A stretch of 64,000 bases of DNA from Thermoanaerobaculia bacterium (GTDB lineage: Bacteria; Acidobacteriota; Thermoanaerobaculia; Multivoradales; J023). Within the stretch, counting starts at the first letter, position 1. The number at the start of each line of letters is the position of its first letter. The stretch covers positions 434,001 through 498,000 of the forward strand of contig JAUIJL010000001.1 in assembly GCA_030431255.1 (NCBI GenBank), given 5' to 3'. Both the position numbers and the translations under genes were made by a program. This document shows positions 5,851-55,123 of this stretch, piece after piece. Below the pieces are notes generated by a model. It worked only from the letters and a program-made list of their open reading frames with translations. It was not told where the DNA came from and did not search any database.

Positions 5851-6036
5851 AGCGAAGAGCTGTCCTGATCCACTGAATATTCCACTCGCTCCCATCGGTC
5901 GTATCCACTCCATAGACCGCTTCGGGAATCGAGCTAAAAGAATCTCGTCCTCGGTGAGCCATTCACCCAGCGAGTTGCGCATGGGGTTCAGAGGCTTCCA
6001 AGAAGCCACTGATACTGAACCATGAGGAGATATGTG

Positions 6037-9000
6037 ATGTCGATGATTGTACAGGGTCCGGCTCATTCCGGGGCTTCGACCGAAACCACGTGTGATGTGA
6101 AACCTTGGACTTGGGAAGCCTTCGACCGTGCCGAGACGGTTTGGGGCCTCTTCGAAAAGAAGGCCCTAGAGCACCCCGACAAGACGGCGGTGATCGACGG
6201 TGGGGCGGAGATCGACTACGAGCACCTGAGGCGGCGGGCGATTGAAATCGCCGCCGAGCTCGTGGCGCAGGGCGTCGAGCCGGGGTCGCTGGTGGGCGTG
6301 TGTATGGGCCGCGGCTGGGAGCTGACGGCGACGTTGATGGGCATCTTGCGAGCGGGCTGCGCTTACGTGCCCCTCGATCCGGCTTATCCCCAGGAGCGGC
6401 TCCGCTACATGGTGGAGCATGCCCGTTTGGCGGCAGCCGTCGTGGACGACGACACGCGTGCCGAGCGCTGCGTTGGGTCGTCGGCCCCGGCAGCGCTGAA
6501 GGTCATACACCTCGGCCGAGTGAGCGCCCGGGCCCGCGCTCTCTCCGCGGACGCCCCATTCGCGGACGCTCCATTCGCCGGCGCCCCCGTCGGAGTCCCA
6601 GTCGGGCCTTCGCCGAGGGATCTCGCCTACGTCATTTACACCTCCGGATCGACAGGTCGACCCAAGGGCGTCGCGGTCGAGCATCGAAGCGTGGTCGCCT
6701 TGAGCCGGTCCATGCGCACCCTGCTGAGCGACGAGGAGCTGTCGGGAGTGCTGGCGTCGGCGTCGATTTCTTTCGACGCGTCAGTGATGGAGATTTTGGG
6801 TACTTTGACCCTGGGCGGCACCGTGGTTTTGGCGGAGAACGTGCTGGCCTTGCTGGAGCTGCCGGCCGCGGATCGGGTGAAGACCTGCGTCATGGTGCCG
6901 TCGGCGATGAAAGCTTTGCTGGCGGCCGGTCGCCTGCCCGAGAGCCTGCGCTGTGTGGTCTTGGGGGCCGAGGTGCTCACACCGTCTTTGGTGAGCGAAA
7001 TCCACGCGCAGGACCCGAGCCGGCGCGTGATCAACGTCTACGGGCCGACGGAGGATACGGTCTACGCGACGACCGCCGAGATCCCCGTCGGCGCGGAGAC
7101 GACGACCATCGGTCGGTCGGTGCCGGGCTCGCGATCATATGTTTTGGACGATTCCTTGCAACCAGTGCCCGATGGAGCCGAAGGGGAGCTCTACCTGGCA
7201 GGCGACAAGCTGGCGCGGGGATACCTGCACGAAGAGGACCTCACGAGAGAACGGTTCTTGGAGGTGGAGCCAGGCGGTGCGGTTCCGGAAGAGCGGCTCT
7301 ATAGAACCGGAGATTTGTGCCGGCGTGGGCGGGACGGGCGGATCGAATTTTTGGGTCGGATCGACCAACAGGTCAAGATCCGCGGGCATCGGATCGAGCT
7401 GGAGGAGATCGAGTCGACCCTGGAGTCGATGGATGGTGTCGACGGCGCCGCCGCAGCGGCGGCGGACGGTGGCACGGGCCGTAAGGTGCTTGTGGCCTAT
7501 GTGGTGAGCCGGCGCGGAACCGTGACTCGGGAGGCAGCTAGAGCGTATGTGGCGGAGCGTCTGCCCGGTTATATGGTGCCCCAGGCGGTCGTGCTCTTGG
7601 ACGAGCTGCCGCGCTTGCCCAACGACAAGCTTGATCGATCGAGGCTATCGGAGCTGGGGATACCGACTTCGGAGCCCGGTCGGTGTTCCGGCAGATCGGA
7701 AGCTCGAACGGCTCCTGGTTCTGGGCGATCCGAGCTCGTGGACCGCCTGGCCGGGCTCACCCGGGCCGAGCAACACGGAATCCTGCTCGCGACCGTCCGG
7801 CGGGAAATTGCGTCCTTGCTCCGCTTTCCGAATGTCGATCAGGTCCAAGCCGACGAGCTTCTGGACGACCTCGGCCTCGATTCCTTGACCAAGGTGGAGC
7901 TGAGCGCGCGGCTCGGCGGGCTCTGCAGTCGGAAGCTACCGGTGTCGGCGGCAGCGAAGTGCGCCACTCCCGCGGCGGTGGCGGATCTCCTGCTGGAGCT
8001 GACCGGCAGTGGCACGGCGCAAGGCTCGACCCAGTCGTCGCGGGATCGATCGGTGGATACCCTGGCCGGCTTCCAGACCCAGATCCAGGGGTGTTACCCA
8101 CCGTTTCTGGCCGGCAAGGCTCCGGCCTGGTCGGCGACCGACAAAGGCACCCTCGTCCAGCAGCTCAAGCAGCTGGTGAGCCGGCCGGGAGATCCATTCT
8201 GCAAGTTGGTGCGCACCGGTAGCGGTCATCGCGGTGTGGTCGCCGACGTGGACACGGATCGAGCCCGCGAGGCGATCATCTGGACCACCAACCTCTACCT
8301 CGGATTGAATCGCGATCCAGAAGTGATCGCGGAGGCCCGATCCGCCGTCGAGCGATTCGGTACCGGCATGGGAACGTCGGCCGCTGCGTCCGGCATTACC
8401 GATGTGCATCAGGAGTTCGAGCAAGCCTTTGCCGACTTGGTGGGCAAGCCGTCCGCTTGCTTATTCCCCACGGGTTATACCGCCAATATGGGCGCGGTTG
8501 CCGGCTTGCTCGGTCATCAGGACGTCATCGTCATGGACCAGCTCTGCCACGCCTCCATCGTCGACGGGGCGCGGCTGTGCGGAGCCACGATCCGCACCTT
8601 CCAACACAACAATCCCGCGGATCTGGAGGCGGTTCTCCGGACCGAAGCGTCGCCTTATCGCACGGTTCTGGTGGTCCTCGAAGGCGTTTACAGCATGGGG
8701 GAGGGGGCGGCACCGGTCTCGGAAATCGCCCGCATCGCCAAACGATACGGCGCCCTCGTGCTGGTGGACGAAGCTCATTCCTTCGGCTTCTACGGTCGGC
8801 GTGGGGCCGGCATTTGCGCCGAGCAGGGGGCGACGGAGCACGTCGACTTCATCATGACCACCCTGAGCAAAGCGCTCGGAAGCCTGGGTGGGGTCGTGGC
8901 CGCCCGGGAGGAGCACGTGGCCCTGCTCAAATCGTCCTCCAGGGCCTTTATTTTCCAGGCGTCCACTAGCCCGGCCGACATCGCCGCGGCCTTGGCGGCC

Positions 9001-9768
9001 CTGCGTCGACTGAGCATCGACGACAGCTTGCGCGAGCGCCTTTGGGACACCACGGCCTACATGCGGAAGCGCTTCTCCGAAGCCGGATACGACCTCGGGA
9101 CCGGCGACGGGCCCATCGTCACACCACACTTTCACGATAAGGAAAAGCTGTTCGCGATTGTCAACGGTTTGTTCGAGCGCGGGGTTCACACCTCGGCGGT
9201 GACCTATCCGATCGTGGAAAGCGGACGAGGGCGGCTGAGGTTCATCTGCTCCGCCGCCCACTCTCGACAGGACGTGGATCGCACGCTCGAAGCCTTGATC
9301 GACGCGGAACGGGAAGCCGAAGCGCAGCAGTCGGTGATCGCGGACTGCGCCGCAGACGGGCCTTCGGCAAAGCTTGAGGCGGAGCGGGTGTGGAAGCAGG
9401 TGCATGGGTGGACCGAGGCCTTCGCCGGCTATCTGGAAGAGTGGGTTCTGAAGGTTCCGGATCAAACGCCGAATGTCGCGGTGTCCTTTCGAGCGATTGA
9501 AGCCGAGAACGTGATTTCGATCAACCTCCATGAAAGGACCATAAGGGTTGGAGATCCCACACCCACCGACGCATCCTCTTGCTCATTGCTGCTCACCGAC
9601 CATCGGGCGGTCGCCGCCTTGTGCTCGTCGAGCGTGCAGGGGTTGTTGGACCACATGCTCAAGGGCACGTGCGTGTTGAATGGGCAGGTCGAGGCGTTCG
9701 TCTGGCTGATCGGGCGAATGACCGAGTGGAATCGGGTGAGCGACAATCTGGACGACATCCACAAATAG
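6037..9768 (+). CDS. A-T-AONS megasynthetase: adenylation, carrier, alpha-oxoamine synthase, SCP2-like tail
   Basis: A 1243-residue enzyme; the ATG at 6037 is preceded by GAGGAG at 6024-6029. Adenylation domain (about 25-530): core motifs YVIYTSGSTGRPKG, FDASVMEILG (with the Asp that binds an amino-acid amine), NVYGPTEDTVYA, YRTGDL, GRIDQQVKIRGHRIELEEIE, LPNDKLDR. Carrier domain (about 590-660): phosphopantetheine site DDLGLDSLTKVEL. PLP-dependent alpha-oxoamine synthase (about 740-1090): DEAHSFGFYGRRGAG and Schiff-base Lys in TTLSKALGSLGG. The last 110 residues resemble an SCP2-like lipid-binding fold. Known AONS domains condense an acyl thioester with an amino acid with loss of CO2. The inferred product is therefore an alpha-amino ketone made from an activated acid and an amino acid. 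No thioesterase, condensation domain, PPTase or exporter gene adjoins it, which is unusual. The 3' end shares sequence with the peptide gene at 9990. Confidence 0.88.
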   Translation: MSMIVQGPAHSGASTETTCDVKPWTWEAFDRAETVWGLFEKKALEHPDKTAVIDGGAEIDYEHLRRRAIEIAAELVAQGVEPGSLVGVCMGRGWELTATLMGILRAGCAYVPLDPAYPQERLRYMVEHARLAAAVVDDDTRAERCVGSSAPAALKVIHLGRVSARARALSADAPFADAPFAGAPVGVPVGPSPRDLAYVIYTSGSTGRPKGVAVEHRSVVALSRSMRTLLSDEELSGVLASASISFDASVMEILGTLTLGGTVVLAENVLALLELPAADRVKTCVMVPSAMKALLAAGRLPESLRCVVLGAEVLTPSLVSEIHAQDPSRRVINVYGPTEDTVYATTAEIPVGAETTTIGRSVPGSRSYVLDDSLQPVPDGAEGELYLAGDKLARGYLHEEDLTRERFLEVEPGGAVPEERLYRTGDLCRRGRDGRIEFLGRIDQQVKIRGHRIELEEIESTLESMDGVDGAAAAAADGGTGRKVLVAYVVSRRGTVTREAARAYVAERLPGYMVPQAVVLLDELPRLPNDKLDRSRLSELGIPTSEPGRCSGRSEARTAPGSGRSELVDRLAGLTRAEQHGILLATVRREIASLLRFPNVDQVQADELLDDLGLDSLTKVELSARLGGLCSRKLPVSAAAKCATPAAVADLLLELTGSGTAQGSTQSSRDRSVDTLAGFQTQIQGCYPPFLAGKAPAWSATDKGTLVQQLKQLVSRPGDPFCKLVRTGSGHRGVVADVDTDRAREAIIWTTNLYLGLNRDPEVIAEARSAVERFGTGMGTSAAASGITDVHQEFEQAFADLVGKPSACLFPTGYTANMGAVAGLLGHQDVIVMDQLCHASIVDGARLCGATIRTFQHNNPADLEAVLRTEASPYRTVLVVLEGVYSMGEGAAPVSEIARIAKRYGALVLVDEAHSFGFYGRRGAGICAEQGATEHVDFIMTTLSKALGSLGGVVAAREEHVALLKSSSRAFIFQASTSPADIAAALAALRRLSIDDSLRERLWDTTAYMRKRFSEAGYDLGTGDGPIVTPHFHDKEKLFAIVNGLFERGVHTSAVTYPIVESGRGRLRFICSAAHSRQDVDRTLEALIDAEREAEAQQSVIADCAADGPSAKLEAERVWKQVHGWTEAFAGYLEEWVLKVPDQTPNVAVSFRAIEAENVISINLHERTIRVGDPTPTDASSCSLLLTDHRAVAALCSSSVQGLLDHMLKGTCVLNGQVEAFVWLIGRMTEWNRVSDNLDDIHK

Positions 9769-30309: not shown

Positions 30310-30699
30310 CTACCACCGTACCTGACCTTCGGCCAAACCGATGGCCCGCTCGAGGGTCGACAAAACATGGTGTCGGGCGTCCGGATCGATGCCGTCCAAG
30401 AATTCGCCCTGAATTTGAAAACCCGACTTGCGACCGGTCGGCAGGTCGACCTCGTAGGTCACGTGCACGAAATGGCTGGCCGGATCGGGGTCGTCCGGTG
30501 CGGCCGCCAGGTTGTGGATGAAGATCGACCGATCCGACGCCCGCTGCCAGCTGATCCGCGTGGTGAGCCCGAAGTCGTCCGTATACCAGGGGCTCCACTC
30601 GTGCTCTTTCAGGTGAAAGCCTTTGAGCGGCAAACGCCCTTCCGCGACGGCCTGTTCCGGCCCCATGACCTCGAAATGCTCACCGGTCTTTCTTGACAT
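30310..30699 (-). CDS. Hypothetical protein divergent from the RiPP operon
   Basis: 129 residues, no signal peptide. It begins MSRKTGEHFEVMGPEQAVAE and contains FHLKEHEWSPWYTDDFGLTT, RASDRSIFIHNLAAA, SHFVHVTYEVDLPTGRKSG and a C-terminal helix DARHHVLSTLERAIGLAEGQ. Alternating strands suggest an alpha/beta or lipocalin-like fold. I recognise no family. It starts 140 bases from the precursor-peptide gene on the opposite strand, so the two may share a regulatory region; a TTGACA box lies at 30693-30698 on the plus strand inside its start. Confidence 0.6.
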   Translation of the reverse strand: MSRKTGEHFEVMGPEQAVAEGRLPLKGFHLKEHEWSPWYTDDFGLTTRISWQRASDRSIFIHNLAAAPDDPDPASHFVHVTYEVDLPTGRKSGFQIQGEFLDGIDPDARHHVLSTLERAIGLAEGQVRW

Positions 30700-30839
30700 A
30701 CTGTCTCCAACTGGTTACAACCTTCACGTATTCTCTCGTATCGTTCCGCATCGAGCCACCGCCAAAGGCTCGAAAAAAACGAGACGGGCCCGGTGCCCGA
30801 CCTATGCGGACATCCCTCTCAACCGAAGGAGACACGACA

Positions 30840-30994
30840 TGAACCCGAAGCAAGTGACCCCGCAGGATCTGAAAGCCCAGGAAGCCGGTCCGATCCAGAC
30901 CCGAGATCATGAGCTGAGCACCTGTCCGACCTGCGTCTCGGGCATTGAAGCGTCTACCCTCGAGAAGAACTATCTCGAGATTCTGAAACGCTGA
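30840..30994 (+). CDS. Candidate RiPP precursor peptide (51 residues, CPTC)
   Basis: ATG at 30840 with AAGGAGA at 30825-30831. The peptide starts MNPKQVTPQDLKAQEAGPIQ, is highly charged, and has only two Cys, C29 and C32, in STCPTCVSG; it ends LEKNYLEILKR. It is encoded 130 bases before an MNIO (DUF692) enzyme and is separated from it only by a hairpin. Precursors of MNIO enzymes are typically short, leader-bearing and Cys-containing, and the enzymes modify Cys or adjacent residues (methanobactin, TglHI, bufferin-type systems). The first 20-25 residues would be the leader and CPTC the modified core, but the long C-terminal helix after the Cys pair is unusual. Modification is inferred, not shown. 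Confidence 0.65.
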
Positions 30995-31005
30995 TCCCCA
31001 CATTT

Positions 31006-31039
31006 CCGGCCCCGTGTCCGCATGCGGACGCGGGGCCGG
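31006..31039 (+). promoter_or_regulatory. 17+17-base hairpin between precursor and MNIO gene
   Basis: CCGGCCCCGTGTCCGCA and TGCGGACGCGGGGCCGG are complementary except for one G-T wobble. There is no T-run (ATCTTCG follows). RiPP operons often have such structures after the precursor gene, which protect its mRNA or attenuate read-through so that peptide exceeds enzyme. Confidence 0.7.
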
Positions 31040-31123
31040 ATCTTCGATCCGCATCCGAAGCTCACCATCCAATTCCGTTCTCGATTCCAGCCCGGCGAGA
31101 CCGCACCTCTCCAGGAGACCTCC

Positions 31124-32041
31124 ATGGGTTTGAGCGACCCCATTTCTGAGATTCCACGCTTGGGCGTGGGTCTATCGTTCCAGGACACCCTCTCCAATTT
31201 CGTGTGCGAGCACTTGGATGCGTTCGACTACCTGGAGGTCGTTCCCGATTCCCTGTGGGACGATCGTGGCCGGGGTGCCCGACCGCGCTATGAAGAGAAA
31301 CAAGCTTTCCTCGACTTGCTGGGATTCGTCGCTGAGCACAAGCCGATCATCGGTCACAGCATCGGCCTGTCCATCGGCACCGACGACGACATCGATCCCG
31401 AGCACGTCGAGCAGATCGCCACATGGCAGAAGCGCTACCAATTCCCTTGGCATAGCGACCATCTGAGCTTCAACCGTTTGGACCACGCCAGCGGCCATTC
31501 CATCGACGTCGGCTTCACCATGCCGGTGCCATACGATTCCGCGGTCCTCGATCTGCTGGCGAGCAAAGTCGACACCATGCAGCGCCGGGTTCCGGCTCCT
31601 TTCCTGCTGGAGAATAATGTGTATTATTTCCAGATTCCCGAGCAGGAGATGACCGAGGCGGAGTTTCTCAACCGGCTCACGGAGCGCACGGGCTGCGGCC
31701 TGCTGCTCGACCTGCACAATGTGTATGTCAACTCTCGCAACCACGGCTTCGAGCCCCGGGAATTTCTCGAAGGCTTCGATCTCACCCGAGTGGTGGAGAT
31801 GCATATCGCCGGTGGCTTGAGCGTGGAAGGGGCCTATCTCGACGCCCATTCCGGCCCTTGTCCCGAAGCGGTGTGGGATCTGCTGGATTGGGTCATGCCG
31901 CGGGTGCCGAACCTCGGCGGTGTGACCTTTGAGGTGTTCTCCACCTACTATCCGAAAATGGGACCCGAGCGATTGCTCGAGGAGCTGGCCCGAGCGCGCG
32001 AGGCCACCGCCGATCATTTCGCCGCCACCGCGGCCTGTTGA
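31124..32041 (+). CDS. MNIO (DUF692) multinuclear iron peptide-modifying enzyme
   Basis: 305 residues; the ATG at 31124 follows AGGAG by six bases. The TIM-barrel fold of DUF692 is clear from PRLGVGLSFQ at the N-terminus. The iron ligands of the family are all in place by position: H78 (GHSIG), H110 and D112/H113 (WHSDH), E163-N164 (LLENN), D196/H198/N199 (DLHNVYVN), H227 (MHIAGG), D240/H242 (DAHSG), E270 (TFEVFS). MNIO enzymes hold two or three Fe ions and oxidise Cys or other residues in RiPP precursors, using a partner protein for recognition. The candidate precursor lies upstream and a partner-like gene 21 bases downstream. Confidence 0.9.
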   Translation: MGLSDPISEIPRLGVGLSFQDTLSNFVCEHLDAFDYLEVVPDSLWDDRGRGARPRYEEKQAFLDLLGFVAEHKPIIGHSIGLSIGTDDDIDPEHVEQIATWQKRYQFPWHSDHLSFNRLDHASGHSIDVGFTMPVPYDSAVLDLLASKVDTMQRRVPAPFLLENNVYYFQIPEQEMTEAEFLNRLTERTGCGLLLDLHNVYVNSRNHGFEPREFLEGFDLTRVVEMHIAGGLSVEGAYLDAHSGPCPEAVWDLLDWVMPRVPNLGGVTFEVFSTYYPKMGPERLLEELARAREATADHFAATAAC

Positions 32042-32062
32042 GCCCAGAGGTTTGGCGCGGGA

Positions 32063-32701
32063 ATGACACTCCACGGCTTTCAACAGGCCCTCTCCGAGCT
32101 GGTTCTATCGTCGGATCTGCGATCCCAAGTCGCGGATCGGGGAGCCGACGCCCTCGGCGCCTTCGATCTGGATCCTAGAGAGACGCGGCGGCTGCTGTCG
32201 ATCGCCGAGCAATCGGGCTTGGGCACCGGTATTCTGATCCACCGTTCTTTCCGCCTCAGCATGTTGGTGCGCTCGCTGCCGCGAGCCTGTGAGCTGCTCG
32301 GAGCCGGGCTGTCGGATCTGGTCCACGACTATTGGGACGAGCATTTGCCTCTGCACTACAACTTTGTTTGGGAGTCGTGTCGGTTTGCCGGTTACCTGAG
32401 GCGGCAGTTGGAAGACGGCTCGTTGACGGAGCCGCTGTTGAGCGACCTCTTGCGCATCGACCTGGCGTCCATGGCCTTGCGGCGGGGTTTGCAGCCCGAG
32501 CAAGTCGCGCTGGATCCGCGGCCCGGAGCCGGCGACCTCTTGGAGGCATCGACTCCGAATCGGCTGGTCTTATTCTGTGGCCACGACCCGCGAGCGCTGC
32601 TGACCGGCGACGACCCAGGGGCGGCGAGCCCGTCGAGAGGGGAGTATCGGCTGGTCATCAGCCGACAGCCGGGCGGCGATCTCGAATTCGAATCGGCCTG
32701 A
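32063..32701 (+). CDS. MNIO partner protein (DUF2063-like, leader recognition)
   Basis: 212 residues. The N-terminal helical domain (about 1-75) has FQQALSELVLSSDLRSQVAD and DLDPRETRRLLSIAEQSGL, similar in layout to the DUF2063 and LigA/Nif11-like small helical domains. It is followed by SMLVRSLPRACELLGAGLSD, then YNFVWESCRFAGYLRRQLED, and a short beta-rich C-terminus with YRLVISRQPGG. Most MNIO operons carry a partner gene immediately after the enzyme that binds the precursor leader. Position (21-base gap), size and fold fit that role, but the sequence is a divergent member. The permease gene starts 18 bases after the stop, so transcription probably continues. Confidence 0.6.
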   Translation: MTLHGFQQALSELVLSSDLRSQVADRGADALGAFDLDPRETRRLLSIAEQSGLGTGILIHRSFRLSMLVRSLPRACELLGAGLSDLVHDYWDEHLPLHYNFVWESCRFAGYLRRQLEDGSLTEPLLSDLLRIDLASMALRRGLQPEQVALDPRPGAGDLLEASTPNRLVLFCGHDPRALLTGDDPGAASPSRGEYRLVISRQPGGDLEFESA

Positions 32702-32719: not shown

Positions 32720-35164
32720 ATGAAGCTCCCGCAGCGAAACGTGCTCGACCGCCACAGATGGTCGGTCATCCTCACCTTGGCGATCCTCACTTTGGCCGTC
32801 GGTCTCGGGGCGGGCGCCGTCGGCTTTACCGTGCTCGACCGGGTGTTGCTCAGGCCGTTGCCGTTTCCCCAATCGGAAACCCTCTACGCCCTGCACCACA
32901 CCGCCCCCGGTTTGAATCTTGCACGCCTCGAGCTGTCCGACGCCACCTATTGGTTGTATCGCCAGAGCCGGACCCTGGACGGCTTGGGAATTTACCGAGT
33001 CACCGACGTCGACGTCACGGGAGATTGGGCGCCCGAGCGGTTGACCGCAGCCCTGGTGTCCGCGGAGCTGCTGCCCATGCTCGGGGCCGTGCCGGTCCAC
33101 GGTCGGGGATTCGTCGACGAGGAAGAGGTGCCCGGCGGCATCGACGCGGTGATGATCGGAGCCGGCTATTGGCGTCGGCGATTCGGCGGTGAAAACGAGA
33201 TCTTGGGCCAACGCCTCATCGTCGACGGCCGGCCACGCACGATCGTCGGAGTGCTGCCGTCGACCTTTCGCTTTCCGTCGTCCGAGGTCGATTTGTGGAT
33301 GCCCCTGGCCCTCGATCCAGAGACCGCCGTGGGGGCCCGTTTCGAATTCTCGGCCGTCACCCGTTTGCCCTCGCGGTCGGCGGTCGATTCGGCACTCGGG
33401 GATTTGCGCGGCCGACTGCCGCGCCTGGTGGTGGACTACCCGCAATCGCGCTGGACCGAGGCCTTGCTCGAATCCTCGGACCTGACACCGGTTCTAATAC
33501 CGCTCAAGGACGAGCTGGTGGGAGGTCTGAACGACTATCTTTGGGCCCAAGCGGTAGCGGTCGGCCTGCTGCTGCTGGCCGCCTGCCTGAACGTCGCGAC
33601 CCTGCTCTTGGTGCGGGCGGAGGATCGACGGCCGGAAACGGCCCTGCGGGTCGCCCTCGGTGCCGATCGTCGACAGCTTTTGGCACACCACTTGAAGCCG
33701 GGGCTGGGGATCGGTGCGGCGGCAGGAGTGCTGGGCCTCGGGTTTGCCGTCATTGGGCTGCACCTTTTGGCGACCCATGGACCTGAAATCTTGAGCTCGA
33801 CGCGTCGCCTGACCGCCGACGGACGGACCGTGCTGCTGACCCTGGGCGTGGCCCTCGCGTTGGGCACCGCCCTGGGTTTGCTCACCGGATTGCGCGGGGT
33901 GGAGGATCCGGCTCGATGGCTGCGCTCCGGCGGCGCGACCCCGGCCCAACAGCGGGAGCGAACGGTGTTGGTGGTGCTTCAAGTGGCGGTCGCCACGGCA
34001 TTGTGCACGGGGGCCGCCACCCTGGGCGTCGGTTTGATGGAGCTGCGCCGCGTGGACCCGGGCTTTGAGGTCAACCATGCGCTGAGCTTCGATCTTCGGC
34101 TGCCAAAGGCCCGATACGCCGACGCCGACGCCGTGGCGGCCTTTTACGGCAGAGCTCTCGAGAGTCTGGCAAGCCTGCCAGGAGTCGCGTCCGTGGGTGG
34201 CGTCCACCGCCTGCCGCTCACCGGGGGGGGAAGCACCAACGGCTGGACCGCCGAGGGCGCGACCCGCGGACCCGACGAAGGTCCGGCCGTTTTCGCCACC
34301 CGATGGGCGTCCGAGGGGTATTTTCAGGCCATGGACATCCCCCTGCTCCGGGGGCGTGCCTTCGAGCCGGCGGATCGCGAGCTGGTCAGGCCGGTGGCGG
34401 TGATCAGCCACGCTTTCGCGACCCATTTCTGGGGCGACGAGGATCCATTGGGCCGTCGCATCGCCCTCGGCACCGGCGAAAACGGTCCGTGGTACACGGT
34501 GGTCGGCGTGGTCGGCGACGTCCGGGATCGCAGCCTGAGCGGGCCTCCGGAGGCCATGGCCTACCTGCCCCTGATCACCCATTTACCCCGCCGAGAAGCA
34601 GCCTACGCGCCGTCGCAGCTGAGTCTGGTGCTGCGGGGCGGGGTCGGTGGCTCTGGTTTCGGTCCGGGCTTCCAGCCCGCGATACGTCAGCTTATTTCCG
34701 AGCTCGATCCCGAGCTGCCGATCAGCCGCATGGGACCCTTGGAACACCTGGCACGGAACGATCTCGCCGCTTCGCGTTTTGCCCTGACGCTGCTTCTCGC
34801 CACCGCTGGGGCCACCGGAGTGCCGGCAGTCGTCGGTCTATTCGGCTTGATCGCCTATTGGGTCCGCAGCCGGCGACGGGATTTCGGCGTGCGCCTGGCC
34901 CTCGGAGCCGATCCCAGGCGATTGCTGTGGCAGGTGCACGGCAAGTCCTTGAGGCTCACCGCGATCGGGGTCGTCCTCGGCTTGGTCGGAGCCGGCGTCG
35001 CCGGCGGTTATGTCGAGCATTTGATCTACGGGGTGCGCGCGATCGAGCCCTGGATCTACCTGACGGTGGCGCTGCTCTTCCTGCTCACCGCCCTGGTCGC
35101 CGGCCACGGGCCGGCCCGCCATGCGGCCAAGACCGATCCTCGGCAGGCCTTGCGCCAGGACTGA
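32720..35164 (+). CDS. MacB-like permease, duplicated-orphan (ADOP) type
   Basis: 814 residues, two tandem FtsX/MacB modules without a nucleotide-binding domain. Module 1: N-terminal membrane helix (WSVILTLAILTLAVGLGAGA), periplasmic MacB-PCD region (about 60-240, including FVDEEEVPGGIDAVMIGAGY, WRRRFGGENEILGQRLIVDG), then three helices around 270-400. Module 2: QVAVATALCTGAATLGVGLM, a second periplasmic region, and C-terminal helices (LLLATAGATGVPAVVGLFGL, RRRDFGVRLALGADPRRLLW). The repeated RxxxxR-ALGADRRQLL-type motif is diagnostic. The ADOP family is strongly expanded in Acidobacteriota. No ATPase gene is adjacent. It follows the MNIO partner gene and could export the peptide, but this is an inference. 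Confidence 0.88.
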   Translation: MKLPQRNVLDRHRWSVILTLAILTLAVGLGAGAVGFTVLDRVLLRPLPFPQSETLYALHHTAPGLNLARLELSDATYWLYRQSRTLDGLGIYRVTDVDVTGDWAPERLTAALVSAELLPMLGAVPVHGRGFVDEEEVPGGIDAVMIGAGYWRRRFGGENEILGQRLIVDGRPRTIVGVLPSTFRFPSSEVDLWMPLALDPETAVGARFEFSAVTRLPSRSAVDSALGDLRGRLPRLVVDYPQSRWTEALLESSDLTPVLIPLKDELVGGLNDYLWAQAVAVGLLLLAACLNVATLLLVRAEDRRPETALRVALGADRRQLLAHHLKPGLGIGAAAGVLGLGFAVIGLHLLATHGPEILSSTRRLTADGRTVLLTLGVALALGTALGLLTGLRGVEDPARWLRSGGATPAQQRERTVLVVLQVAVATALCTGAATLGVGLMELRRVDPGFEVNHALSFDLRLPKARYADADAVAAFYGRALESLASLPGVASVGGVHRLPLTGGGSTNGWTAEGATRGPDEGPAVFATRWASEGYFQAMDIPLLRGRAFEPADRELVRPVAVISHAFATHFWGDEDPLGRRIALGTGENGPWYTVVGVVGDVRDRSLSGPPEAMAYLPLITHLPRREAAYAPSQLSLVLRGGVGGSGFGPGFQPAIRQLISELDPELPISRMGPLEHLARNDLAASRFALTLLLATAGATGVPAVVGLFGLIAYWVRSRRRDFGVRLALGADPRRLLWQVHGKSLRLTAIGVVLGLVGAGVAGGYVEHLIYGVRAIEPWIYLTVALLFLLTALVAGHGPARHAAKTDPRQALRQD

Positions 35165-37416: not shown

Positions 37417-39114
37417 TCAGGGGCAACCGACGAGCTTGACCTGAAGGGCTTCCATGCGTCGGCTCTGACCGGTGGTGCCGGCGGTGGCGCCGTTGCTGAC
37501 CCAACCGTGCCAACCCTGACCTTTGACATGGGCGCGGTATTGAACACTGCAGCCCGCCGGCGGATTGACCAGCCAGACCTTGATCGCTTCCATGCGCCGG
37601 CTCTGACCGGTGGTGCCGGCGGTGGCGCCGTTGCACACGGAGCCCATCCAGCCGTTGCCTTTGACATGAGCTTGGTAGCAAATCGAAGTTCCGGAGGGCG
37701 GGTTGATCAACTTGATTTGGGCCGCCTCCATGCGTCGGTTCTGGCCGGTGGTGCCGGCGGTCGCGCCATCGAGCACCCAGCCGAGCCAACCCAGGCTCTT
37801 GACGTGAGCCCGATACTGCACATGCATATTTTCGTCCCGGATGGTGACCCAGCGGACTTGCTCATCCCAATTCGTGCAGCCGTTCTGGACCGCCAGCTTC
37901 ACTCGATAGACGGTGCCGCCACCGAAGTCGGTGAAGTTGTAGTGGTTGGCGAGATTGACCGAGCCGACCTGACCACTGAACCAACTGGACCAGTAGTTGC
38001 CGGACACGGTGTTGCTACCCACAGAGTTGGTGCGATAGATCTCGATGAAGTATTGGGCCTCATTCTCGCTGGCGCTGCCGTTGAGCACGACGTTAGAGCT
38101 GTCGTAGGACGTCGAAGGTAAGGTGAAGGAAGCGGTAGCCTCGCGGCATTCGCACATGGAAAGGGTTTCCATGCGGGAGCCGCCGTTGTCGTTCGCCCAA
38201 TGGGTGGTGTCGAAATAATCCTTTACCCAAATGGGGAAGCCGGGCGCGTTGATGGTGAAGTCACCGAGCTTGGTCACTTTCTTGTCGTTGCTACGCACCT
38301 TCTGGAAGAAAATGTCATAGGGCGGGGTGCAGTAGGAGTCGGTTCGTCCAAGGGAGCCGCGCACGCCGATGGTGTCGGCTTTCTCGCCCCACCACCAATT
38401 GAAGAGGCCTTTCTTCTGGTTCTTGGTCGTCCCGCCGACGGAGGCGTAGAGGCCCCAATTGCCGATCCATTGCTTGGCCTTCATGCGCCGGCTGCCGCCG
38501 GCATAGGTGTAGTGCTGGACCTCGGAATGGCTGCTGCGGCAGCACGACGACTTGGCCGAGTAGCTGTTGAACGTCAGGTCCGTGGAGCCGCTGCCACCAC
38601 TTATCTCATCGAATAGGTAGCCCTCGCGCAACGCATCCAAAGACTCGATGTCCGCTGCGTCGACTTCATAATAACCATGGGGGTAGTAGCGGTAGATGGT
38701 GCCACCGACCTGGACCTCGCCTTGGGGATTCAGCAGGCCGCGGAAGTATGGGTCGTGCACCTGGTGATCATCGGGATCGTTGAATTCGTCGACGCCACCG
38801 GTCTCGTCGAAGATCGCCAGCTCGGTCTCGATCGACATCAGGAGCGATTCAAAGCCGAGCGAAAGGGCGAAGTCTTGAAAGACCGGGGCGTCCCGTTCGT
38901 CGCCCTCGCGTCCTCCGGCCTCGTCCTCGAGCTCCTGCTGGGCGATCAGCTCAGACATCACGGCGGCGAAGTGGTCCGTGCTTTCGAATACCAGCATGTC
39001 TTTATCGATGAGGGGTAGATCGTACCCCTCATTGGGTGACTCGGCAGCGAAAGCCGGCGAGTCGAAGACAATGGCAAGAAAAAGGCATGAGAACAAGGCG
39101 AAATAGCGGCGCAT
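37417..39114 (-). CDS. Secreted protein with three C-terminal ChW repeats
   Basis: 565 residues with a signal peptide (FALFSCLFLAIVFDSPAFAA) and a TAGGAG ribosome binding site. The middle part (about 150-430) includes GGTIYRYYPHGYYEVDAADI, YTYAGGSRRMKAKQWIGNWG (moisture-sensing/lectin-like) and several Cys. The C-terminus has three tandem ~48-residue repeats of the ChW type (YRAHVKSLGWLGWVLDGATA, GTTGQNRRMEAAQIKLINP). These are 'clostridial hydrophobic with conserved W' domains, which I know from many Gram-positive surface proteins and occasionally Acidobacteriota. The repeats differ mainly in the loop before GTTGQ. They are thought to bind carbohydrate. The function of the rest is unknown. 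Confidence 0.85.
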   Translation of the reverse strand: MRRYFALFSCLFLAIVFDSPAFAAESPNEGYDLPLIDKDMLVFESTDHFAAVMSELIAQQELEDEAGGREGDERDAPVFQDFALSLGFESLLMSIETELAIFDETGGVDEFNDPDDHQVHDPYFRGLLNPQGEVQVGGTIYRYYPHGYYEVDAADIESLDALREGYLFDEISGGSGSTDLTFNSYSAKSSCCRSSHSEVQHYTYAGGSRRMKAKQWIGNWGLYASVGGTTKNQKKGLFNWWWGEKADTIGVRGSLGRTDSYCTPPYDIFFQKVRSNDKKVTKLGDFTINAPGFPIWVKDYFDTTHWANDNGGSRMETLSMCECREATASFTLPSTSYDSSNVVLNGSASENEAQYFIEIYRTNSVGSNTVSGNYWSSWFSGQVGSVNLANHYNFTDFGGGTVYRVKLAVQNGCTNWDEQVRWVTIRDENMHVQYRAHVKSLGWLGWVLDGATAGTTGQNRRMEAAQIKLINPPSGTSICYQAHVKGNGWMGSVCNGATAGTTGQSRRMEAIKVWLVNPPAGCSVQYRAHVKGQGWHGWVSNGATAGTTGQSRRMEALQVKLVGCP

Positions 39115-49358: not shown

Positions 49359-51797
49359 TCAGGCCCGAGAGTCTTCGCCGCGATCGAAGTCGGCCTCGTC
49401 GAGCTCGCCGGTCTGAAACTTCCAAAGCAAGGCGTACTGGCCGTCGAGCTCGATCAGCTCGTCATGGGTGCCCTGCTCCATAATCTTGCCGTTCGATAGG
49501 AACAAGATGCGGTCAGCATGGCGCACGGTCGAGAGACGGTGCGCGATGACGATCGACGTCCGGCCAGTCGATATCCGGCTGATTGAGCGCTGAATCGCTG
49601 CCTCGGTTTCGTTGTCGACCGATGATGTGGCTTCGTCGAGCACCAGGATCGGCGGGTCTTTGAGCACCGCACGGGCGATCGCGAGGCGTTGGCGCTCTCC
49701 TCCCGAGAGCTTCTGGCCGCGCTCGCCAACAACGGTGTCAAAGCCTTCGGGCAGTCTTGAGATGAAGTCGAAAGCCTCGGCCGCCCTTGCCGCTGCCACA
49801 ACTTCCTCGAAATCGGCATCCGGACGGCCGTAAACGATATTCTCGTAAACCGTTCCGTCGAAGAGGTAGGTCTCTTGGCTGACCATGCCGATCGCGTTCC
49901 GCAGGTCGCTGGTCTTCAAGTCACGAATGTCGGTGCCGTCGAGCAGAATGCGACCCTCCGTGAGGTCGTAGAATCGCAAGAGAAGCTTGACGAGCGTGGA
50001 TTTTCCGGCTCCGGTTGAGCCGACGACAGCGATTCGTTGTTGCGAAGGGACGCGGAAATCGATGTCCTTCAGCAGTGTTGCCGGACCAGTGTAGCCGAAG
50101 GTGACGTTCTCAAAGTAGATTTCGCCCGCGACTTTGTGCTTGGGCAAGGCGATGTCGCCGGAAAGGATCCGTGGCTCGATGCCCAGGATCTGGGTCAAAC
50201 GCTCGCCGGCGGCCAGCGCGTTTTCGTAACAGCTGAAGTCGCCACTGAGATCCCTCATCGCGGCTGTCATCCTGCCGACCCAGAATACCTGCACCAGGAG
50301 CAGCGATTTCGGATAGACCCCGCGAAGCGCCAGCACGGCAGCATAGAGCAGCGATACCATCAGGGTCGCGGACAACACGAAATGGGTGGTGTTCGAGTGG
50401 TAACTGCTCAGATTGCTGGCCTTCGCCTTGTCGAGCCGCTCGGCCCTACCGGCAAGAATGAATCGCCTAAGCTCGTCATCCTCCGAGGTAAAGCTCTTAA
50501 TGGTCGACAACCCGGAGAGGGTATTGGCCAGTAGGCGATTCGTATAGTCCTTGCGCTCACCAGCCTTGGCTGCGCGGCGCGTGGACTCTTCGCGAAAGCG
50601 ATTGAAGTTGTAGTAGATGATCGGCAAAGGGGCGAGGGTAAGTATCCCTAAAACTGGAGAAATTACGAGCAGGATACTTCCGAGAACGACGAGGTCCATC
50701 GTCTTATTGATCACGGAATTGGGAACTTGCTCGATGTAGCGGTAGATCTTGGCGCTGTCGTCGTTGATCAGCCCCATCAGCCGTCCGGTGCTCTCGTCTT
50801 CGAGGTAGGACATATCCAGACTTTCGACATGCTTCAACGTGCGGACGCGGAGCGCATGCTCGACCTCACTGGCATAGGCGTGCCAGGCCTGGTTGCGGAG
50901 GTGACCAACTGTCAGCTCGCTGCCTTTTCCCACCAGGAACAGGCCTCCCAGGACTCCAACCTGAATGAAGGGGTTCCGGAGGCCGATCGTTTTGAGCAGG
51001 GGACTGCCTCGGCTGATGACCGTCACTACAAGGTGACCCATCGTAAAGGCGCCGGCAAAGAAGAAAAGGTTGCCGAGTGCGGACAGCTTCGGTGCGCGTT
51101 GATCGTGTTTGCGGCGCGTCTTGACGGATTGAATCAGGCGGGTGAGAGAGCTTTGTTCCCTAGGGTCGGATTCTTCCTTGGAGTGGGCTGGTGCGTTGTC
51201 GATAGCAGAAAGGATCAGCTGGCCGATATCGCCGTTGACGGTGTTGGGATTAAAGAACACCAGGATCCGACCGGAGGTCGCATTCGTTTCGACCCGATGA
51301 ATTCCGGCAACGCCTTGTAGAGTGGTCGCGATGCTCGCGGCCAAGAGGGGACGCCGACGTAACCCAGGCACCTCCCAACGCTCCCGGCCGGGGAGCGCGG
51401 ATCGCCGCTCTACCTTGCTCTGCCCGAGCCCTCCGTTCTGCCCGAGCTCTCCTGGCGATAGCCACGACGAATCGCGGCGGGCACTGGGTGATCCCGCAGC
51501 GGAAGGACGATAATTGCTTGGGGAACGGGTCAAGGCTGCTCTCGCGGAGGCCTTGCTCAGGGAGATGGTGTCGATGGCGGAAAGGATCAGCTGGCCGATA
51601 TCTTCTTTGACGGCGCTGGGATCGAAGAACACCAGGATTTGACCGGAGACGGCGCTCGCTTCGGCTCGATGAACGCCGGCAACTTCTTCTAGAGTGCTCG
51701 CGATGCTCGCGGCCACGCGGGGTCGTTGGCGCAATCCGACCACTTTCCAGCGCTCCCGGCCTGGGAGAGCGGATCGCCGCTGTATCGAGCTCCTCAT
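49359..51797 (-). CDS. ABC exporter with two N-terminal HMA2-like domains
   Basis: 812 residues. Two tandem HMA2-like (ferredoxin-fold) domains, about 8-75 and 130-200, each with [14 protein letters not shown]/ATLxxVAGxHRxE, a GxILVFF strand and [10 protein letters not shown]. The CxxC metal motif is absent. The two copies are near-identical and come from an internal duplication of roughly 370 bases. An ABC type-1 exporter core follows: six helices (about 245-540, [20 protein letters not shown]), NBD with Walker [11 protein letters not shown], signature [14 protein letters not shown] and Walker [16 protein letters not shown]2-like domains lacking Cys are known beside P-type ATPases; a fusion to an ABC exporter is rarer. 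It lies in the same transcript direction as a DUF5132-like gene (51979), divergent from the P-type ATPase unit. Confidence 0.85.
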
Positions 51798-51978
51798 GAG
51801 CGCTCCAATGTCCAGCTTCGGCTGGCCGTTCGCGACCTGATCAATCGTGTCGCCTCAGCATGACTGCCGTAGAATGTGTCCCAAAGAGGCAACCTTATCG
51901 TTCTGCGAAAATCGGCGGCTGGAGAGGCGCCAGGAAAGGCCCGCCGATACCAATAGACCGTCGCACCTCAGGGTTGTT

Positions 51979-52191
51979 TTACTGCCGAGCTTTCGTGGGC
52001 ACATCTTCAGAAGCGGTTGCTTTCTTGTACTCGGCCTCAGCGGCCTCGTCTTCGATGTCTTCGGCAATCTGCGCCGCGAGCCCTTCGAGCTCCTGTCGGG
52101 CTGAAATGAAGCCCTTGATCAAGAATCTAGCGATATCTTTGCCGAAGACGACGCTTAAGACTCCCAGAACGAAATAGACCACTCGGTGCAT
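51979..52191 (-). CDS. Small single-helix membrane protein (DUF5132-like)
   Basis: 70 residues from ATG 52191 (AAGGAG upstream); an in-frame extension to 52281 is less likely. One hydrophobic helix (MHRVVYFVLGVLSVVFGKDI) is followed by an amphipathic acidic helix (ARQELEGLAAQIAEDIEDEA). DUF5132-like proteins have this architecture. It is 182 bases before the HMA2-ABC gene in the same direction. A paralogue of the same layout starts on the opposite strand at 52509, so the pair flanks the divergent promoter region. Confidence 0.7.
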   Translation of the reverse strand: MHRVVYFVLGVLSVVFGKDIARFLIKGFISARQELEGLAAQIAEDIEDEAAEAEYKKATASEDVPTKARQ

Positions 52192-52508
52192 GGTTTCGAG
52201 GCTCCTTCGGGTTGAGCGGATGTCAAGGCTCCGGTCAACGAGAGTATGATGCAAATCAACTGAGATTGGTATTGGGTACAAGCTGAGCGAAGCTAGCAGG
52301 TGCCTGCCCTGAAGTCAATTCTGACGCAGCGGGCTCCCGCCGTGTCTAGTGCTCTCCAGGAGCTCGGTTTTGACTCTACTAACAGAAAACGGATTACACG
52401 AGGCGCTGGGCGGCGATTCAGTACTTTCTTGACCCTACAGAGCTCGAGGTGCTAGCTTCAGAACGTAGGAATAGGTTTTCGGTTCTAACCCAGGAGAGTC
52501 ATTTCCAT

Positions 52509-52700
52509 ATGCACCAAGCCGTCGTTTGCTTTCTGCTGGGCATGGCTGCCCCCTCAATCGTCAAGAAAGCCCGGCCGTACGCGATGGGGTCGTCTGACCG
52601 AGCCTTGCGGGTGATCAGCAGGAAGGCAACACAGATGCGGGAAGATCTAGAGGACTTTGTCGCCGAGGCTGCCGCTGAGGTTGACGCGAAGCGAGCTTGA
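52509..52700 (+). CDS. Small single-helix membrane protein, divergent paralogue (DUF5132-like)
   Basis: 63 residues from ATG 52509 (CAGGAGAG upstream). Like the protein at 51979 it starts with MHQAVVCFLLGMAAPSIVKK and continues with a charged amphipathic helix (ATQMREDLEDFVAEAAAEVD). Its TGA overlaps the ATG of the P-type ATPase (TGATG), so translation is coupled. It may be an assembly partner of the ATPase, as the other is for the ABC exporter. Confidence 0.75.
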   Translation: MHQAVVCFLLGMAAPSIVKKARPYAMGSSDRALRVISRKATQMREDLEDFVAEAAAEVDAKRA

Positions 52701-55123
52701 TGACCGCGATCCCTTTTCCTTTGGCGTCGGTGCGGAGCTCGATTCCCGGAAGATTGCGTCTCGAATTGCCGCAATTCGCTTGGCCGGCAGCCTTCGGCTT
52801 GCTCGGTGAGCTGGTTGAACGCGGGATCGCCATCTCGGCGACCGGTAACCGTACGACAGGCTCAGTGCTCTTGCACTATGACCCGGAGGAGCTCTCTGGG
52901 TTCTCCTTCGCCGAGCAGGTCTTGGCAACTCTTGAGCCGTTGCGCCAGGCTCCGAACGCCGCCGAAGTCGTTCCCGAATCCCGACTGGCTTCCGGTGTAG
53001 GCTGGGAAATCGTTAGTGACATCCCAGGTCGCCTACGCGCTCGCCATCCCAATCTGAGCCTCCATGCCGCCGCCGGCGATCGCGTCAGAATCGGTCTATT
53101 ACAACTCGACGGAGTCATCGCGCACCAGGTGACGGCTGCGACCTCAGGGGTGCTGGTGAGGTATGACCCGGAAAGGTTGTCTCGTGCCGTTTTGCTGTCG
53201 AAACTCGACAAGCTGGTCACCCTAGACGGGGAACCTTCCGAAGAGGGTCTGCTGCCGCCACCATTCGAGCCGGATTTCGCGGCCATCAACCTAGCGGCGT
53301 CAAGCGGTGCCTTCGGGCTTTCCGTCATGGCTTTAGCGGCGCCGATCTTTAGTGGCGCTGCCGTTTTAGTTACCGCGGCGGCCTCGAGCCACATCTTTTG
53401 GAGCGCCGGCAAATCGTTAGTCGTCGATCGGGAGATCAAGGTAGACATCCTCGACGCGGCGGTGATCAGCCTGGCGCTGGCCCACGGTTATGTCGCACCC
53501 AGCGCCTTCATGATTTGGGTCGTCGACGTAGGTGATGTTCTGCTCGACTATTCGGCGAAGTCTTCGACCCGGAGACTGTCTCAATTCTTTGGTAGTCAGG
53601 CGCGCATGACCCGGCGTCTGATCGACGGAGAAGAGATCGACACCTTGGTCTCTGAGCTAAAAATCAATGATGTCATCGTTGTCGAGACCGGTGAGCAGAT
53701 CCCGGTCGATGGCGAGGTGATCGACGGCGATGCGCTGGTCGATCAACATGCCCTCACTGGCGAGTTTGCACCGGTGGAGCGATCGGTCGGCGAGAGCATC
53801 TTCGCCATGACCGCAGTCATGGGCGGTCGTCTCGTGGTCCGGGTGGGCAAGACCGGAGCTGACACGCAGGCCTCGCAAATTGTCGAGATCATCGAGCACT
53901 CGGTCGAGCACAAGGTACGAATGGTAACTCTGAGTGAGAGGTTCGCCGACCAGATGGTGCTTCCTACCCTGGCCCTCGGCGGGATCGGTCGGGTGGTGCA
54001 GGGGCAGGGAGCGATGTTGGCAGTGCTCAACGCCGATTTCGGCACGGGCACCCGCATCGCCGGCCCGCTGGCCATGCTCAATGCTCTCTCGACGGCTGCG
54101 CGCCACGGCATCGTCGTCAAGAACGGTGCTGTGTTGGAGTCGATCCACCTGCTCGACGCTATTGTCTTCGACAAAACCGGCACCCTGACTCAGGAGGTAC
54201 CGAGAGTCGGTCGGATTATCGCTAGCAATCCAGCCTTCTCCGAGGAACAAATCCTGACCTATGTGGCGTGTGCCGAGCAGCGACTGTCTCATCCGATCGC
54301 CCGGGCGGTGATGGCGCGGGCGGAAGAGCTCGGGCTAGAGTTGCCGGCAATCGAAGACTCTGACTATCACCTAGGTTTCGGTGTCGAAGTGACGATCGGC
54401 GGTGATCGCGTCAAAGTGGGTAGCAGGCGCTTCGTCGAGCGTGAAGAGATCGAGATCGACGGCAGCGTCGGCAAGCAGCTCGAAGAGATCTACCGCCGCG
54501 GCAGCTCTGCGACCTTTGCCGTCTTGAACGGTTCGTTGATAGGGGTCATCGAGTTGGAGGCCGATGTCAGACCGGAAGCCGAGCGGATCATCAAGGACCT
54601 CCGCTCTCGCGGCTTGAAGAAGATTTACATGATTTCCGGGGATCAGGAGATTCCGACCCGGGAATTGGCCAATCGTTTAGGGATTGACGAGTTTTTTGCC
54701 GAGGTTCTGCCTGAGGAGAAAGCTCAATACGTCAAAAAGCTCCAAGATCAAGGTCTCAAGGTCGGAATGGTGGGCGACGGAATCAACGATTCTGTCGCCC
54801 TGTCGCAGGCCGACTACTCCGTCTCCCTGCGAGGCGGCGCCGACATCGCAGCCGACACCGCCGACGTGATGTTCATGGATGGCAATCTGGCCAATTTCGA
54901 CGTGTTGCTGGATATCTCGGAGGAGCTGCGAAACAACGTCGAGCGCAGCGTCCTCTTGACTGTTGTGCCGAATACCGTCTGCATCATCGGTGCATTGTCT
55001 GGGATTGTCGGTTTCGGCGCCTCCCTGTTGCTCAACAATGTATTCAACATGGTGGCGGCGGGCAACGGCATGATGCCGATCTACTCCGAGGGAAAAGCAG
55101 AGCGGCGCCTTTCTTCCGTTTGA
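52700..55123 (+). CDS. P1B-like cation-transporting ATPase with paired HMA2-like domains, CPC motif missing
   Basis: 807 residues. Two HMA2-like domains without Cys (about 8-75: SSIPGRLRLELPQ; about 97-165: SDIPGRLRARHPN), both with the PGR motif seen in the ABC exporter at 49359. P-type core: HALTGEF (about 349), phosphorylation site FDKTGTLTQE (about 488), HP signature RLSHPIARAV (about 530), GDGINDSVAL (about 692). The membrane segment that carries CPC in P1B-ATPases instead reads NADFGTGTRIAGPLAML, so the transported ion cannot be predicted. Similar CPC-less sequences are known among bacterial ATPases of unknown specificity. It is coupled to the small DUF5132-like gene. Confidence 0.88.
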   Translation: MTAIPFPLASVRSSIPGRLRLELPQFAWPAAFGLLGELVERGIAISATGNRTTGSVLLHYDPEELSGFSFAEQVLATLEPLRQAPNAAEVVPESRLASGVGWEIVSDIPGRLRARHPNLSLHAAAGDRVRIGLLQLDGVIAHQVTAATSGVLVRYDPERLSRAVLLSKLDKLVTLDGEPSEEGLLPPPFEPDFAAINLAASSGAFGLSVMALAAPIFSGAAVLVTAAASSHIFWSAGKSLVVDREIKVDILDAAVISLALAHGYVAPSAFMIWVVDVGDVLLDYSAKSSTRRLSQFFGSQARMTRRLIDGEEIDTLVSELKINDVIVVETGEQIPVDGEVIDGDALVDQHALTGEFAPVERSVGESIFAMTAVMGGRLVVRVGKTGADTQASQIVEIIEHSVEHKVRMVTLSERFADQMVLPTLALGGIGRVVQGQGAMLAVLNADFGTGTRIAGPLAMLNALSTAARHGIVVKNGAVLESIHLLDAIVFDKTGTLTQEVPRVGRIIASNPAFSEEQILTYVACAEQRLSHPIARAVMARAEELGLELPAIEDSDYHLGFGVEVTIGGDRVKVGSRRFVEREEIEIDGSVGKQLEEIYRRGSSATFAVLNGSLIGVIELEADVRPEAERIIKDLRSRGLKKIYMISGDQEIPTRELANRLGIDEFFAEVLPEEKAQYVKKLQDQGLKVGMVGDGINDSVALSQADYSVSLRGGADIAADTADVMFMDGNLANFDVLLDISEELRNNVERSVLLTVVPNTVCIIGALSGIVGFGASLLLNNVFNMVAAGNGMMPIYSEGKAERRLSSV

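Follow-up and report, generated by a model that had tools for sequence, protein, structure and literature searches.

The window, by which we mean the whole 64,000-nucleotide stretch of DNA analysed here, carries a compact three-gene cassette made up of a short peptide with a cysteine-pair motif, a DUF692 (MNIO) enzyme and a helical partner protein (Table 1), and very probably encodes a real peptide natural-product system of this known enzyme family. The chemistry of MNIOs at cysteine and other residues is unusual, and to our knowledge most MNIO clades have no assigned substrate. The earlier note had proposed a minimal MNIO RiPP cassette at this position, an arrangement that our analysis bears out, and whole-genome searches found the same cassette in 16 further genomes of Acidobacteriota, Cyanobacteria and Bacteroidota. 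All 17 loci combine an upstream peptide with the motif C-x-x-C-x-S-G, a downstream homologous partner and an identical set of iron ligands in the enzyme. Gene content, motif conservation, ligands, clade membership and the fold resemblance of the partner are direct observations, from which we infer modification of the peptide, its chemistry and any role of its tail. That the three genes form a RiPP cassette in which the cysteine pair becomes oxidised is, in our judgement, likely.

Table 1. Positions of the cassette genes, their elements and the adjoining gene in the window
Feature	Positions	Strand	Description
Precursor peptide gene	30839..30994	+	51 aa; translation, Shine-Dalgarno sequence, homologous peptides in 16 other genomes
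CPTCVSG, the conserved C-x-x-C-x-S-G, residues 29-35	30923..30943	+	predicted modification site
C-terminal 16-residue tail	30944..30991	+	may be a follower or belong to the product; column conservation
16-bp perfect hairpin, no T-run	31005..31040	+	between precursor and MNIO; fold z -3.87
MNIO (DUF692, PF05114) modifying enzyme	31124..32041	+	305 aa from the corrected (likely) start
Partner protein, PME-type-2-like	32063..32701	+	helical N-terminal domain and short beta-rich C-terminal part
ADOP/MacB-type permease	32720..35164	+	TIGR03434 above cut-off; MacB_PCD and FtsX

The precursor peptide and its family

Translation of positions 30839-30994 gives the precursor MNPKQVTPQDLKAQEAGPIQTRDHELSTCPTCVSGIEASTLEKNYLEILKR, whose gene is preceded by a strong Shine-Dalgarno sequence, GAAGGAGACACGACATG; the gene called in the earlier note stands, its start lying one base before the 30840 given there. 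A sigma-70-like TTGACA-N17-TACAAC at 30693-30721, spotted by eye, failed a consensus scan. Judged by eye, the peptide has neither a signal peptide-like stretch nor a GG motif, and it matched none of the precursor-family profiles in Pfam and NCBIfam. Its only cysteine pair is internal, the CPTCVSG motif ending 16 residues before the end of the peptide, which terminates in ...EILKR. The count of 19 residues past the Cys pair was correct (VSG plus these 16), but the view that this charged tail is atypical does not survive comparison, tails of 15-33 residues with conserved positions being the rule in the CxxCxSG family. Column conservation yields the tail pattern h-[DNE]-x-x-[VI]-x-x-x-[FY]-x-x-x-[IVLA], in which a hydrophobic residue past the motif is followed by D, N or E, then mostly by V or I at +11, F or Y at +15 and I at +19; the window's tail has T at +11, where the family has V or I. 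An amphipathic helix was considered for the tail and rejected, the hydrophobic moment not exceeding that of shuffled sequences in nearly all peptides.

Both cysteines, the serine and the glycine of the motif are invariant in 19 aligned peptides, the initial peptide filter having required CxxC but not S or G, and a 20th peptide with the motif (in genome G1372) was masked by a fused upstream frame. Proline at the second motif position is variable, with G, A, L and T also occurring. Codon comparison of Bryobacteraceae and Taibaiella pairs indicates purifying selection on the peptide (dN/dS 0.05-0.21), the Brasilonema pairs being too close to be informative. By their sequences the CxxCxSG peptides qualify as a real precursor family, because the motif is found at 17 of 17 loci as against 3 of 2968 unrelated small reading frames elsewhere, a contrast that also supports the proposed role of the window's peptide as MNIO precursor. 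Absence of a homologous peptide gene beside DUF692 elsewhere had been named as the outcome that would tell against the proposal; such genes are clearly present, at every one of these loci.

The leader region, in contrast to the motif, is not conserved between phyla. Cyanobacterial and Bacteroidota peptides carry GG-type leaders with weak matches to bacteriocin or lanthipeptide leaders, the leader in Bryobacteraceae is a segment of about 50 residues, and that of the window is a short unrelated segment. Two precursors each occur in G502 and G503, and in G1275 the motif appears twice in one peptide, which has a GG leader and lies adjacent to a C39-peptidase ABC exporter. In G488, two tandem CxxCxSG precursors lie directly downstream of an NRPS with two modules and an FkbM-type methyltransferase domain (L042 35-7258); a general NRPS link was discarded, this being the single genome in which it was seen.

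Used as a query against 396 genomes of the phylum, the 51-residue peptide matched only itself, and since such a peptide is too short and divergent to find relatives, the enzyme was used as bait. A first scan of contigs with the MNIO turned up three loci in cyanobacteria, one in a Bryobacter MAG and three in Taibaiella, each with a small peptide gene on the upstream side of the MNIO and a partner gene on the downstream side. To these the whole-genome searches added G488, of the window's order, two cyanobacteria, one Bacteroidota genome and five clade genomes from the family of the Bryobacter MAG. The cassette is rare: in a sample of 148 genomes of the window's class it occurs in two, and in a sample of 292 from the phylum of the cyanobacteria in one, which is the query's own source genome. 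No relatives were found on viral contigs, and plasmids held only distant MNIOs of less than 34% identity. One plasmid of Rhodanobacter denitrificans (NZ_CP088981.1) carries a bufferin-type operon of DUF2282, DUF692 and partner genes, flanked by merR on one side and merTPCA on the other, which hints at a mercury-related role for that operon.

The enzyme, its partner and the surrounding genes

The window's MNIO matches PF05114 with an E-value of 7e-62 (209.5 bits against a gathering cut-off of 25). Its start was implied to be 31022, giving 339 aa, which is probably wrong: that start has no Shine-Dalgarno sequence and falls in the loop of the 16-bp hairpin, while the ATG at 31124 is preceded by CCAGGAGACCTCC, a good ribosome-binding site, and agrees with the N-termini of the relatives. 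The start at 31124 is thus the likely one. The tri-iron ligands of TglH are H71, H107, E151, D184, N187, H216, D229, H231 and E258 (PMC10880893), and all nine have counterparts in the window's enzyme (H78, H113, E163, D196, N199, H227, D240, H242 and E270, numbered from the 31124 start), eight of them mapped by alignment to TglH and E270 by position. The full ligand set claimed for the enzyme is thus present, and the nine residues are invariant in the 17 MNIO sequences of the clade. The modelled enzyme is a TIM-barrel whose best fold match is TglH (8hi7_B), followed by 3BWW and MbnB. In the phylogenetic tree the 17 MNIOs group as one clade with support of 97/96, to which the bufferin/HvfB, ChrH-type and TglH enzymes do not belong; several reference branches are long, and that of TglH, outside the clade, is very long. 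Further MNIOs sampled from the same phylum mostly have a bufferin-like precursor of the CKGK type as their neighbour, and CxxCxSG is absent from every upstream peptide listed for them.

The partner gene begins 21 bases past the MNIO stop, as had been noted, and its helical nature is borne out by an AlphaFold2 model of moderate confidence (pLDDT 79.5, 8 sequences). The model matches TglI best (8hci_A; probability 1.00, TM 0.56, E 1.8e-3) and the PME-type-1 protein NGO1945 second (3dee), though weakly (E 0.71). The window's partner has no Pfam match and hence no DUF2063 above cut-off, two relatives' partners showing DUF2063 below threshold, and its C-terminus is shorter than in most relatives. 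Homologues of the partner are encoded at the loci of all 16 relatives, and six other MNIO loci lack one. The model thus points to a PME-type-2 architecture, lacking Pfam DUF2063 but structurally akin to NGO1945 and TglI.

The hairpin between precursor and MNIO is probably an mRNA stabiliser or attenuator. A 12-bp hairpin stands at the equivalent relative position in G488, and as a conserved cassette element the hairpin was rejected, being present in these two loci of the window's order and missing in nine others examined; Rfam gave no match anywhere in the window. The ADOP permease gene, which starts 18 bases past the partner stop and lies outside the conserved cassette, is possibly co-transcribed with it. 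Further away, the stretch at 49362-55120, downstream of the cassette by some 14-20 kb, encodes an ABC transporter along with a P-type ATPase, each bearing HMA_2 domains. A 565-aa protein at 37420-39114 on the minus strand has ChW (clostridial hydrophobic W) repeats, here outside clostridia, and a 1248-aa single-module adenylation/carrier/aminotransferase fusion is encoded at 6022-9765.

Proposed chemistry and competing readings

In the mechanism we propose, the 51-residue peptide would be the substrate, held by the TglI-like partner, which would dock on the MNIO. The multi-iron site of the enzyme would then use O2 to oxidise the cysteine pair of C-P-T-C-V-S-G, most likely in at least one four-electron step of about -4 Da each, and both cysteines may be used jointly to give a thioether or heterocycle ring or a crosslink within the motif. 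By analogy with known systems, we put a joint two-cysteine ring, rather than reaction at one cysteine alone, at a little under an even chance; it is favoured because both cysteines, their spacing and the S-G are invariant and because the register is common to ChrH-type MNIOs.

ChrH-type precursors end in CPACGMG, that is C-P-x-C-x-x-G, and on CPxCGxG these enzymes link the sulfur of the first cysteine to the second cysteine's beta-carbon, with formation of an imidazolidinedione (PMC10214503, PMC12636315). In ChrH/DybH, both cysteines are required and the CPxCGxG motif may be embedded (CPACGMMM) (PMC12636315). The chryseobasin system of ChrH and DybH therefore shares with ours an MNIO and the same seven-residue register in the substrate. 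Residues 5-6 of the motif, however, are x-S here instead of G-x, and the motif is internal with a conserved tail behind it, whereas that of ChrH is typically C-terminal. The enzymes also differ, ours belonging to another clade, having a TglI-like partner, and consisting of the 305-aa barrel only, without the C-terminal helical domain typical of ChrH.

The main rival holds that each motif cysteine is converted separately to a 5-thiooxazole, the known chemistry of HvfB, BufB and FonB (PMC12668002) in bufferins, oxazolins and fontiphorins, and that the pair of rings chelates copper, making the product a cytosolic or exported mini-metallophore; we regard this as plausible, though we would not put it first. 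The curated NCBIfam models rank BufB (169 bits), HvfB (145 bits), ApyH, ChrH (69 bits) and MbnB in this order for the window's enzyme, as for its relatives, which weighs against a ChrH-type ring and in favour of the thiooxazole, but every score is far under its equivalog cut-off (310-600, that of ChrH being 600). Bufferin-like systems resemble the window in having an MNIO and a partner (PME-type 1) downstream of a small Cys precursor; they differ in their Sec signals, CKGK- or EGKCG-type motifs (also DUF2282) and DUF2063 partners, of which the window has no Sec signal by eye, no such repeats and no DUF2063 above cut-off. The clade is, moreover, separate from bufferin/HvfB, and neither the invariant S-G nor the fixed Cys spacing is obviously required for a single-Cys thiooxazole.

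Improbable, in our view, is another known cysteine reaction of an MNIO such as the TglH-type beta-carbon excision. TglHI of the 3-thiaglutamate/pearlin pathway (PMC10880893) offers the closest folds for both enzyme and partner as well as the full ligand set, but TglA is modified at a PEARL-appended cysteine, added post-translationally at its C-terminus, whereas the window's two cysteines are internal, ribosomally encoded and paired, and the long TglH branch falls outside the clade. Least probable of all is that the peptide is no substrate but a small metal- or thiol-binding CxxC peptide that acts independently and is a chance neighbour of the MNIO, as a weak zinc-ribbon-like match (Pfam E 0.055) and the deduction of its modification from genes might suggest, since one Cys pair makes no full zinc ribbon, the peptide lies upstream of one MNIO clade in all 17 loci across three phyla, and the cyanobacterial and Bacteroidota copies bear GG leaders.

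Returning to the two-cysteine ring, a bolder version would set these cassettes apart as an MNIO-RiPP class of their own, whose CxxCxSG heptad, with a conserved recognition tail behind it, is turned into such a ring on unrelated leaders in three phyla, the product differing from both the chryseobasin imidazolidinedione macrocycle and the thiooxazoles; this we consider a rather doubtful extension. The statement that the Cys patterns of known MNIO products are different is contradicted by the CPACGMG precursors and, in the accessible part of Antoine et al. 2025, by adjamnio-7, a signal-peptide-less CxxC precursor family represented by Novilysobacter spongiicola WP_078758616 (PMC12452194). Compared by its description in that part of the paper, adjamnio-7 resembles the window's peptide in being CxxC, signal-peptide-less (by eye for ours) and MNIO-adjacent, and may be the same family or a sister. 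The suggestion that the product class is undescribed was fair within the readable literature, in which neither the internal CxxCxSG motif with a conserved tail of 15-33 residues nor its clade or product appears to have been described; the novelty it gave to CPxC among MNIO substrates was not upheld.

With this family, one MNIO clade gains a clear substrate motif in 20 natural variants from three phyla, on precursors short enough for synthesis and co-expression, in an enzyme family whose diversity is already under active mapping. The CPxCGxG parallel in a different MNIO clade would allow a direct test of whether motif or enzyme lineage sets the product. The Taibaiella genomes G501-G503 hold a CxxCxSG cassette and a ChrH-type MNIO 36-47 kb apart, the ChrH-type precursors ending in CPACGMG, CPGCGMG or CPPCGRG. 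The window's own genome contains a second, unrelated MNIO cluster (G000:C44:104692-108483), which encodes a 79-aa CELCGHC peptide as well as a peptide that has a GG leader and ends in CSGCSHVCSASCGSDIGLQR.
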